Shown here: piece by piece, positions 25,601 to 32,784 of the stretch | How positions within the stretch are numbered: position 1 is the first letter of the stretch | Layout of the letters: every line of letters begins with the position of its first letter | NCBI RefSeq assembly: GCF_000003605.2 | Contig: NW_003123407.1 | Coordinates: forward strand, 232,689-296,688 | Source: Saccoglossus kowalevskii | Lineage: Eukaryota; Hemichordata; Enteropneusta; Harrimaniidae | Direction: 5' to 3' | DNA: 64,000 bases | Made by a program: the position numbers and the translations under genes | Notes under the pieces: generated by a model | Databases searched by the model: none | The model's input: the letters and a program-made list of their open reading frames with translations, nothing else | What the model was told of the DNA's origin: nothing

Positions 25601-27497
25601 CACAAAACAATAACATAATATGAGGTTATTACGNNNNNNNNNNNNNNNNNNNNNNNNNNNNNNNNNNNNNNNNNNNNNNNNNNNNNNNNNNNNNNNNNNN
25701 NNNNNNNNNNNNNNNNNNNNNNNNNNNNNNNNNNNNNNNNNNNNNNNNNNNNNNNNNNNNNNNNNNNNNNNNNNNNNNNNNNNNNNNNNNNNNNNNNNNN
25801 NNNNNNNNNNNNATTCTCGTAATAACCTTATTATTATACATCTTTTCCTTCCAAGGATACTTCATGGGAATGTCGAAATCCAAAACGTTTAGAACAGAAT
25901 CAGCAAACTTCTTTATGTGGAGTCCGGTCAAACTCCGATGGCAGCCATGTTTGTTTGTATTTTGAGAGGACGCTTACGCACGTAATCATTCCATATTTGT
26001 AACTCGCATATCCTCATATGGTAGGATGAAAATACCCCGTAAAATACCGCAAAATTACGTTACGTTACGGTGACAGATGTATAATAATAGTAAAGTTAAA
26101 ACTGTTATTTATAGAAATATTTGCGCAAGTTGAAAAATACACGACGTATGTTAGGAGTATGGTAAAAGAGTGAAGAAGGCGTATGTTTTAAACAAACACA
26201 GGAGATGACCCCTGTGATGCCATATAAAGTCAAGGTGAGTGAGTCACATTCTGCATCTAAGTTCAGTAAATAAATAATTATAAACGGTGTACGGTTGCCT
26301 GAGATGAAACGAAGGCTGCTGCTTCATGTATAACGACGTCGGGTTCAAAAAAATCATGCGCGCATATATTGCCCACCCCCGTGATCTAATGACGTTTGAC
26401 CCGACACGCTCAGAACTTGATTGCGAAATAAAAACCTCACAAACGATTGATGCGTGTAGAACTGTCACAAGTTCAAAATTAGAGGTATGTGAGTATCGAA
26501 TTACATACTGTAGTTGGGTTGCTATCATGACTCGATTTAGATACGATTCGAAAAAATATCCAATTCGTTTGCCGCGCGAGGAGAGCGATTTTTTTGGTGG
26601 AAGTCGATTTACTACACCTCGTGACATCAGTTCAACAGCTCGCTATGATTAAAGCGTGGTGGTCGTCGCGCAGCGCGTGTTCGAATTTCATGTAAAATAA
26701 ACAATTAATTAACACGCGCTGTATACGTCGCTATGAGTCCCATATCGAATAGGACGCGGCACGACGACTGCCGCCCCTTTAAGAAACATCAATGCATAGT
26801 ATTTATGAACTATATTGTAAATTGCGTGAGTGTGACACGTTGCATTTAATAGAAAGTATTATCTTATAATTAAAATTAACGACTTATTCACGTTTTTTTT
26901 TTTCTTTTCACGTTACATTTCTGTTTATTCCCTGTCGCGTGCACCATCGTATACTAAAGACGAAAGATCGCGGGGGAACGAAAGTCGAGCAAGCCGAATG
27001 AATGATCACTGTAAAGGAAGCTAAATTATACTTCACTAATTACATACTCGTGTCAATTTAAGTATTTTCTATTTGTCAATGGTGCGAAATTTATTCAACC
27101 ACCGTACAAATCACGCTAAATAGAAATCCCCATCACAAATAACATCACAATCACGTTATACGGTGTCAAGTGTAAGTATATTTACTTTGCTGAACGGGCC
27201 AAGGGCTAAACGTGTATTCGTTGGCGGTGATATACTATTTACCATCCCTATCGGAACAACACTGACGATTATTAAATGAAACATATTCTTATTTGTTATC
27301 TAATCAAACTCAAATGTAGTGGATATAAATTATGCTGAGCTTGTTGTCCCGAGACGAACACACACATAATCCTACGTATTCTTTACTGTTTTGGTCATGG
27401 TGGCTATTGGACTACTTAAATCGCAGACAAAAGTCAACTTACCTACTAACGAGAGAACAAGCACAAAAACAGCTAGCTTAATACAATGTGGCCGCAT
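10064..27497 (-). CDS. nAChR alpha-type subunit, gene 1 (six exons)
   Basis: Predicted cys-loop ligand-gated cation channel subunit, acting in the plasma membrane as part of a pentamer. Coding exons in transcript order: 27497-27443, 17712-17570, 16966-16922, 15237-15128, 12446-11911, 10614-10064. They sum to 1440 nt (479 aa plus stop), and every junction has AG/GT consensus and matching phase. Residues about 1-18 form a signal peptide. The Cys-loop is CSIDATYFPFDIQVC (about 151-165). A Trp in FGSW (172) marks loop B. The vicinal Cys pair (215-216), preceded by Tyr at -2 and followed by SYPDVTY, marks an alpha-type agonist face resembling alpha7. TM1 is about 234-257, TM2 262-284 (GERMT entry, Leu at 9'), TM3 299-322 and TM4 452-472. 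The GE entry to TM2 predicts cation selectivity. The first exon choice is an inference because intron 1 would be 9.7 kb; an equivalent exon lies at 32375-32429. Confidence 0.85.
10694..10858. mobile_element. Short inverted-repeat element in nAChR gene 1 intron 5
   Basis: TTAAAGCGGGGGAGGCGTCAC at its left end pairs imperfectly with GGTGACGACCCTCCTGTTTTAA at its right. A related, reversed piece lies at 18655-18722. Confidence 0.45.
11660..11774. repeat. (TTTA)n microsatellite
   Basis: Nearly perfect tetranucleotide array in intron 5 of nAChR gene 1. Confidence 0.97.
11911..12446 (-). CDS. nAChR gene 1 exon 5 (Cys-loop, loops B/C, TM1, TM2)
   Basis: Acceptor TTTCTTAG, donor ATAG|GTTAGT. At 536 nt it has exactly the length of the gene 2 exon. 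It carries the Cys-loop, loop B Trp, the vicinal Cys pair, the post-loop segment with RRRPLFYI, TM1 and TM2 with Leu at 9' and Ala at 20' (gene 2 has Glu at 20'). Loss of the outer charged ring could alter conductance or calcium permeability; that is inference. Confidence 0.93.
15128..15237 (-). CDS. nAChR gene 1 exon 4 (loop D end and loop A)
   Basis: This 110-nt exon has acceptor CTAACCTAG and donor CAGAG|GTAAG. The translation reads MWYDDFLTWKP...IWQPDITLYQ, matching the nAChR signature WxDxxLxW and IWxPDIxLY. A length of 110 nt is the conserved exon 4 size of animal nAChR genes. Confidence 0.9.
16020..16510. repeat. Dispersed direct repeat, copy 1
   Basis: Similar (roughly two thirds identical by eye) to 19140-19640, sharing ACTTGTCAGAATTTGAC, GGAGATTCGCAGTCTT and CGTGATTTAGCCT. 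It lies in intron 3 of nAChR gene 1. Confidence 0.65.
16922..16966 (-). CDS. nAChR gene 1 exon 3 (45-nt micro-exon)
   Basis: This micro-exon encodes DEKNQILILKVWINH between acceptor TTGCTAG and donor CAT|GTAAGT. Its 45 nt is the conserved exon 3 length in nAChR genes, and DEKNQ...W is the family hallmark of beta strand 2. It is phase 0 on both sides of its start and joins exons 2 and 4 in frame. Confidence 0.9.
17109..17517 (+). mobile_element. Hairpin-tailed MITE family, copy A
   Basis: Starts ATTATTATACAGCTGTCACC and ends with a hairpin whose arms contain TACCTCAAAGTATGCACGAA and its complement, closing at ATAACCTCAT. One of five copies in the window. It lies in intron 2 of nAChR gene 1, just downstream of exon 2's donor. 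No coding frame belongs to it. Confidence 0.75.
17570..17712 (-). CDS. nAChR gene 1 exon 2 (N-terminal helix)
   Basis: Acceptor TTATTCTTACAG, donor GTC|GTGAGT, 143 nt. It encodes the mature N-terminus: LVEGLLSNYPKHVRPV, a likely glycosylation site (NNS), then HKLLPIQILDV. It aligns position by position with exon 2 of gene 2 and starts in phase 1, so it needs a signal-peptide exon ending in one extra base. Confidence 0.9.
19140..19640. repeat. Dispersed direct repeat, copy 2
   Basis: Partner of 16020-16510 in the same orientation, in intron 1 of nAChR gene 1. No coding frame is shared, so it is a transposon remnant or an old local duplication. Confidence 0.65.
19742..19962 (+). CDS. Possible 3' exon of unknown gene
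   Basis: A strong pyrimidine-rich acceptor (TTGTCTTTGTCTTTCCAAG, ending about 19758) precedes a frame reading HPYVIMDSQYNMIFVHHS and onward for about 68 residues to a TAG at 19960-19962. An AATAAA lies about 130 bp downstream. No family is recognised, and no upstream partner exon was found. It lies in the long first intron of nAChR gene 1 on the opposite strand. Confidence 0.2.
23526..23823 (+). mobile_element. Hairpin-tailed MITE family, copy B (deleted form)
   Basis: Same 5' part as copy A, but lacking about 110 bp that includes the left arm of the hairpin. It keeps the GACAGTACG core and the right arm to ATAACCTTAT. Confidence 0.7.
24867..25007 (+). CDS. Candidate small secreted peptide (46 aa)
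   Basis: ATG at 24867 with MVRIAALILSLMIIMQQGFA, a good-looking signal peptide with a cleavage-like GFA, followed by 26 further residues including one Cys, and a TAA stop. A second hydrophobic-led frame at 25480-25623 (RWGNSIHYGDRGYSS and more, Gly/Tyr/Asn rich) follows after a long pyrimidine tract and might be a second exon. No family is recognised, and short signal-like frames occur by chance in AT-rich DNA. Confidence 0.2.
   Translation: MVRIAALILSLMIIMQQGFAFEMLVAININFYVCSHIISLYDKASV
25017..25130. repeat. 23-bp tandem repeat
   Basis: Five units of ATCGTGGTGTATTATGTTAC type in a row. Confidence 0.8.
25620..26088 (-). mobile_element. Hairpin-tailed MITE family, copy C (contains assembly gap)
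   Basis: Reverse orientation, from ATGAGGTTATTACG to GTATAATAAT. Bases 25634-25812 are unknown (N), exactly where the hairpin lies in the other copies. Confidence 0.75.
25634..25812. other. Assembly gap (179 N)
   Basis: A run of N inside MITE copy C. The flanking sequence is the two outer arms of the hairpin, so the missing bases are probably the hairpin centre. Confidence 0.95.
26649..26782. mobile_element. TTAA-type MITE, copy 4
   Basis: TTAAAGCGTGGTGGTCGTCG at the left, CGACTGCCGCCCCTTTAA at the right. Present in copy 1 of the direct duplication only. Confidence 0.7.
27443..27497 (-). CDS. nAChR gene 1 exon 1a (signal peptide)
   Basis: ATG followed by MRPHCIKLAVFVLVLSLV and a donor G|GTAAGT, 55 nt in phase 1. 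Gene 2 exon 1 is also 55 nt in phase 1, and joining to exon 2 gives a natural signal-peptide boundary. No better signal exon was noticed on this strand between 17.7 and 27.4 kb, but the 9.7-kb intron makes the link an inference. A conserved GCGCATGCGC lies 120 bp upstream. Confidence 0.65.
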
Positions 27498-27616
27498 AGT
27501 GTGCTTCTCGTCGCCGGTGATTTCTGGCAACAACCGAACAGTCACGACTTGGACGCGCTGCTTGTGGGTTTGATAATGTGCGGCAGACCATAAAAAGAGA
27601 ATTAATTGAGAGTCTC

Positions 27617-27626
27617 GCGCATGCGC
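27617..27626. promoter_or_regulatory. NRF1-like palindrome upstream of nAChR exon 1a
   Basis: GCGCATGCGC, the consensus NRF1-type site, 120 bp upstream of the exon 1a ATG. It lies in about 150 bp of upstream DNA conserved with the exon 1b copy. Role inferred from position and conservation. Confidence 0.5.
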
Positions 27627-32429: not shown

Positions 32430-32544
32430 ATTGTGCTTCTCGTCGCCGGTGACTTCAGGCAAACAACTGAACATCCAACACTGGGACGCGTTGCTTGTGG
32501 GTTGTGTAATGCGGGCAGCTACAAGAGAAGTGATTGGGGGTTCC

Positions 32545-32554
32545 GCGCATGCGC
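32545..32554. promoter_or_regulatory. NRF1-like palindrome upstream of nAChR exon 1b
   Basis: GCGCATGCGC, 116 bp upstream of the exon 1b ATG, in the matching place to the copy at 27617. Retention in both duplicates while surrounding bases drift supports a core promoter role. Confidence 0.5.
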
Positions 32555-32784
32555 TTCGTGGAATTGTAAATGAATTATTCCAGTAAAACTCAATTACCGT
32601 CAGTGACACTAAACGATATTACATTGTAATATCGAATCATTGTTTGCCATGTGGTCTAATTTCTGCTATTGCCTCTATATTTCGTATTTTTATGGGTATT
32701 TGACTTTTTGAGAATATACCAATTTTCATGGGTATTCTCAAACTACTGTTGGAGAATTTTACGCCGCGTGTGATCGTCAAGGAA

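Follow-up and report, generated by a model that had tools for sequence, protein, structure and literature searches.

The question raised by this locus is whether a nicotinic acetylcholine receptor (nAChR) gene of Saccoglossus kowalevskii has two alternative first exons, each with its own promoter, or whether the farther of two similar leader exons is what is left of a lost tandem gene. The window is the whole stretch of 64,000 nucleotides that was analysed, from contig NW_003123407.1, and all positions refer to it. The receptor gene is termed gene 1; it is on the minus strand, as are its two leader exons and their duplicated surroundings.

Two putative first exons and one gene body

Exon 1A (distal, positions 32375–32429, MRPHCIKQVAFVLVLSLV) and exon 1B (proximal, positions 27443–27497, MRPHCIKLAVFVLVLSLV) are each 55 nt and have a phase-1 donor, gtaagt. 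The coordinates of the original prediction are exact, and its distance of about 4.9 kb corresponds to a copy spacing of 4932 bp. It had also placed the same donor in the same phase, and the sequence gtaagttgac directly follows both exons. The two leaders are nearly the same, as had been proposed: 47 of 55 nt and 15 of 18 encoded residues are identical, and hydrophobicity is equal. The coding parts were said to have stayed intact, and the ATG, the frame and the donor are indeed kept in both copies despite many indels in the flanks. Copy A has an extra in-frame ATG at positions 32472–32474, 15 codons upstream, which is absent in copy B; if used, it would add a hydrophilic stretch ahead of the leader.

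Both exons fit exon 2, as predicted: each joins position 17712 in frame and leaves the coding sequence intact. Exon 2 (positions 17570–17712, 143 nt), with an acceptor common to 1A and 1B, is followed by exon 3 (16922–16966, 45 nt), exon 4 (15128–15237, 110 nt), exon 5 (11911–12446, 536 nt) and exon 6 (10064–10614, 551 nt including the stop). Exon 1A or 1B together with exons 2–6 gives a coding sequence of 1440 nt whose sole stop is terminal, and the translation is an uninterrupted nicotinic receptor subunit of 479 residues. It contains both Cys-loop domains, the ligand-binding domain (PF02931, E 2.4e-60) and the transmembrane domain (PF02932, E 4.9e-36), and its best relatives among solved structures are neuronal nAChR alpha chains. 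The translation also has, in loop C, the adjacent cysteines (YECCTDSYPD) that are a feature of alpha-type nAChR subunits. Gene 1 as predicted is an intact nAChR alpha-type subunit gene.

A second receptor gene in the window, gene 2, provides a yardstick. It runs from position 51898 to 46095 on the minus strand, with its 3' end 13.7 kb upstream of exon 1A, and is predicted from its sequence to splice to an intact 444-residue receptor. Its exon 1 (positions 51844–51898, minus strand) is also 55 nt and phase 1. The exon lengths are 55/143/45/110/536/446 nt in gene 2 and 55/143/45/110/536/551 nt in gene 1, i.e., exons 1–5 are equal. The 55-nt phase-1 leader exon is thus a shared architecture, which makes both copies in gene 1 credible first exons.

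Extent of the duplication

The proposed direct duplication is supported, as the copies are collinear and lie head to tail. The shared upstream DNA had been put at about 150 bp; this is too small and represents just the part next to the exon. Collinear duplicated patches extend over approximately 35.0–30.6 kb (copy A) and 28.4–26.1 kb (copy B), and include more than 1 kb of intron 1. The core of the block, with promoter, first exon and early intron, is at positions 31932–32575 in copy A and 27023–27647 in copy B. These align by blastn over 660 columns with 78% identity (E 6.8e-150), a likeness far beyond chance. Upstream of the ATG this main block covers 146 bp, and on the intron side it extends for about 440 bp; patches continue to position 30598 in copy A and 26102 in copy B. 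The far intronic part (30598–31028 in copy A, 26102–26600 in copy B) consists of two blastn matches, 30764–31028 with 26350–26600 at 74% and 30598–30754 with 26102–26250 at 70%. An upstream part, separated in copy A from the rest by about 1.8 kb of unmatched DNA, pairs positions 34582–35010 with 27961–28400 at a local alignment score of 119 (shuffle maximum 61, n=30). A 261-bp promoter and exon query has two matches in the animal's own genome assembly (572 Mb, 4830 contigs), and both are at this locus.

Repeats and an assembly gap make it hard to place the end of the duplicated unit exactly. The flanks were said to have gained MITEs and hairpins. A MITE-like element is present in copy B only (positions 26647–26783, minus strand, 137 bp, high-copy), and the hairpins at positions 32828–32902 are real; the 106-nt "inverted repeat" that the repeat finder places at 25620–25831, on the other hand, is an assembly gap of Ns (25634–25812, about 180 bp of intron 1). 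With intron positions 26100–27442 as query, and 40 of 1718 first-look genome candidates scored, the 41 matches listed comprise the query, copy A over the first 420 bases, and 39 to the element, of which 38 are near-full-length copies elsewhere (89–95% identical) and one is a 35-bp piece. An identity figure for positions 26601–27022 is unreliable because a loose aligner scores higher with the MITE-like element (287) than without it (224). Between the two copies is a dispersed repeat of about 590 bp (positions 29279–29869, minus strand), which has at least 45 matches besides itself with 40 of 475 candidates scored.

Conservation between the copies

Identity between the copies peaks in the intron. 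A block of 110 nt (positions 32025–32134 in copy A, 27100–27209 in copy B) is 92% identical, which is above the exon, and the 25 nt after the exon are 96% identical. Positions 27443–27599 are better conserved than the upstream flank at 27648–27850 (Fisher p 0.005), in a comparison that uses one upstream flank and leaves out the 48 bp around the palindrome described below (27600–27647). The early intron (27023–27442) is likewise better conserved than this flank (Fisher p 4e-6). Conservation of the exon does not exceed that of the adjoining intron (47/55 vs 352/397 identical, p 0.50), and its intron-level conservation could also have come from uneven divergence or gene conversion. Codon changes between 1A and 1B are four synonymous and three replacing, with dN/dS values of 0.16 and 0.22 by two methods. 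With 8 random substitutions, the chance of an intact exon with no more than three residue changes is 0.04, a borderline result from a test that is weak because the exon has only 18 codons; a pairwise comparison of this type does not tell one constrained copy from both. A structured RNA in the conserved intron block is not indicated, as the B copy gives no fold signal (z -0.02), and positions 8000–53000 contain no Rfam family at the gathering threshold.

Promoter signals

Upstream of each exon is the NRF1-type palindrome GCGCATGCGC, at positions 32545–32554 in promoter A (115 bp before the ATG) and 27617–27626 in promoter B (119 bp before the ATG). The exact palindrome occurs twice in the 64-kb window, once per copy, and 0 of 100 shuffles reach two; the two sites share their descent and are therefore to be counted as a single motif that both copies have retained. 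When up to two mismatches are allowed, the NRF1 motif is common, with 29 matches in the window vs 9.7 expected. Around the copy B palindrome (27600–27647), 37 of 48 bp (77%) are identical to copy A, and the flank is hardly lower at 112 of 156. A CCAAT motif is present in promoter A only, where CCAATCA corresponds to TCAATTA in B. With this difference, and with identities of 77–91% by segment upstream of the ATG, the two putative promoters appear to be evolving separately, as had been suggested. We infer a possible regulatory role for the palindrome and for the conserved block in the intron.

About 80 bp before the ATG of gene 2 is ACGCATGCGT, a form that is listed in PMC10810270 as weakly bound by NRF1. 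EWG is linked to NRF-1 in the accessible portion of PMC2643944, where acetylcholine is absent. The gene 2 promoter is not homologous to those of gene 1 by alignment, since 77 of 200 and 19 of 200 simple shuffles reach the scores. CpG richness is uninformative as a promoter sign (obs/exp 1.15 over the window) because CpG content as high as that of the promoters is found in 7–11% of windows. A bacterial-type promoter scan is inapplicable to an animal gene.

The space between the copies and alternative explanations

Of the two explanations in the original prediction, alternative first exons agree better with the data than a leftover of a lost tandem gene does, because no remnant of a gene body is seen between the copies and because the ATG, frame, donor and palindrome are kept twice. 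By alignment and tblastn, nothing in the approximately 2.2 kb between the duplicated blocks (28.4–30.6 kb) resembles exons 2–6, the gene 1 3' flank or, in direct orientation, the remainder of intron 1. The best tblastn match between the copies (positions 28663–28800, E 1.4, two stops) is at chance level. Duplication of the whole gene followed by loss was also considered by aligning positions 27870–30600 with intron 1: the score is 44 with 22500–26100 (shuffle maximum 54, n=30) and 48 with 17713–22500 (shuffle maximum 56), and this candidate was rejected. The same segment against 32730–36000 recovers the upstream duplicated block described above (score 119, shuffle maximum 61). Ten open frames gave no Pfam match above the cut-off. 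No nAChR sequence was detected by tblastn (E 0.01) in the 20 kb that flank the window on each side; exon 1A itself was missed by this search, which therefore excludes larger exons only.

The whole window was also cut into 4-kb pieces, and positions 28401–30600 were aligned to these on both strands, without overlapping minus-strand pieces (shuffle maximum 51, n=20). The scores above 58 are 141 and 140, which represent one inverted match (28935–29377 with 23873–24292), and 64 (30061–30321 with 55105–55403). The two parts of the inverted match are at about equal distance from each exon 1, and it could represent either a repeat or a segment of the duplication that was inverted.

A real but clearly smaller chance belongs to the explanation that one of the copies is a relic, with the distal 1A as the likelier of the two; it would then be the first exon of a tandem gene that lost its body, or a disused duplicate of the promoter. 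Molluscs have tandem nAChR arrays in which members have been gained, lost or fragmented (PMC6896357), and an inverted partial copy of gene 2 at positions 52681–56830 shows that partial duplicates arise in this region. A clean deletion would be traceless, and the exon constraint test is borderline. Set against a relic are the lack of any exon 2–6 or 3' flank remnant between the copies and the retention of the start, frame, donor and palindrome in both of them amid many indels.

It is improbable that transcripts begin mainly at a third first exon between 17.7 and 27.4 kb, or at an unspliced start before exon 2, with the 55-nt exons minor or unused. Exon 2 does have an open in-frame extension with an ATG at position 17767, and about 180 bp of intron 1 are hidden by the assembly gap. 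An open stretch of about 20 codons before exon 2 is, however, often expected by chance, gene 2 shows equal exon lengths with a 55-nt first exon, and the frame, donor phase and leader of 1A and 1B fit exactly. An assembly artefact, such as an unmerged allele, might be suspected in an assembly of 4830 contigs with a gap in this very intron, but is hardly credible for copies that show about 22% divergence and many indels and are joined by gap-free sequence on a single contig, with a MITE-like element in copy B only.

A model with alternative first exons

Duplication of a segment with the promoter, exon 1 and the 5' part of the intron is the simplest account of the locus, and a local tandem event of this type has probably given gene 1 alternative first exons. 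In this model, a local duplication would have placed a second promoter, 55-nt signal-peptide exon and beginning of intron 1 head to tail with the first, and the gene body would have remained in one copy. Transcription would begin separately at each of the two promoters, and the shared phase-1 donor would let either first exon splice to exon 2, which serves both. Signal peptide cleavage, after residue 18 or farther on, would then take off the leader. Because the three residue differences fall in the presumed signal peptide, both transcripts would yield an identical mature receptor, and the choice of promoter would set the timing, place and amount of its production.

Homologous first exons in tandem, with equal donor phase and one exon 2 that fits both, are what is found in gene 1, and the pair would work like tandem variable first exons such as those of Ugt, i.e., a known kind of arrangement. 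In the Ugt1/Ugt2 and protocadherin clusters, tandem variable first exons have their own promoters and are spliced to common constant exons (PMC2819257, as far as its text was available). Gene 1 is similar in that its tandem first exons are homologous, have separate upstream DNA and precede a single series of downstream exons common to both. It differs in having only two copies, with putative promoters recognised from sequence, and in that its 55-nt exon encodes a presumed signal peptide only, so that the mature protein would stay unchanged.

Among nicotinic receptors, the insect nAChR alpha6 gene also has exon duplication within the gene, with exons 3 and 8 tandemly duplicated according to the portion of PMC1919356 seen. 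Those are internal exons and their alternative splicing changes the protein, whereas gene 1 duplicates a first exon and promoter. The bivalve mollusc arrays resemble this locus as tandem nAChR genes with partial and lost members, but in the portion of PMC6896357 available they are whole-gene duplications, and duplicated first exons are not mentioned there. A duplicated or alternative first exon in an nAChR gene was not found among the papers listed by literature searches that cover few subscription journals.

A further reading is tentative. The two duplicated promoters, diverging and both with the NRF1-type palindrome, may each work with their own copy of an intronic control block, and the same mature receptor would then be expressed under two programmes.

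If one of the copies is dead, the locus represents an ordinary partial duplication. If both starts are used, the receptor gene gains a second expression programme without a second gene, and the locus would be a compact natural experiment in which the promoter is duplicated and the coding output is constant. If the reading with two programmes is true, it would represent a regulatory division of labour in which promoter duplication replaces gene duplication.

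Partial inverted copy of gene 2 and other repeats

The 3' half of gene 2, the neighbouring receptor gene, is present as a partial, inverted copy (positions 52681–56830 on the plus strand, compared with 44642–47253 on the minus strand). Sequence identity is 92% across 953 columns, and it is 81% and 71% in other parts. Exon 5 in the inverted copy is without its first part.

A repeat element of approximately 300–420 bp is found at five sites (positions 17100–17517, 23516–23832, 25813–26090, 41283–41699 and 55400–55771), and one of its copies is directly 3' of exon 2 of gene 1, the nicotinic acetylcholine receptor alpha-type gene. 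There is also a tandem array at positions 59751–60373, which consists of 28 copies of a 22 bp unit with 96% matches. Positions 25634–25812 in intron 1 of gene 1 were listed as a hairpin by the repeat finder, but the stretch is an assembly gap of Ns. The CpG observed/expected ratio for the whole window (1–64000) is 1.15, which gives no hint that methylation has depleted CpG across it.

Open frames

An open frame at positions 4119–4532 displays a weak GIY-YIG match (21.3 bits, below the cut-off of 22.6); we take it to be perhaps a Penelope-like element. Exon 2 has an in-frame open extension with an ATG reaching into the intron both in gene 1 (17767–17713) and in gene 2 (50527–50443). These extensions are likely due to chance.

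Matches involving the space between the exon 1 copies

Positions 30061–30321, between exons 1A and 1B (the two similar first exons of gene 1), weakly match positions 55105–55403 near the inverted gene 2 copy, with a score of 64 compared with 51 for the best of 20 shuffles. Positions 28935–29377 match 23873–24292 in the opposite orientation, and the two segments are at similar distances from exons 1A and 1B. This inverted match may represent a flipped piece of the duplication, or else a repeat.
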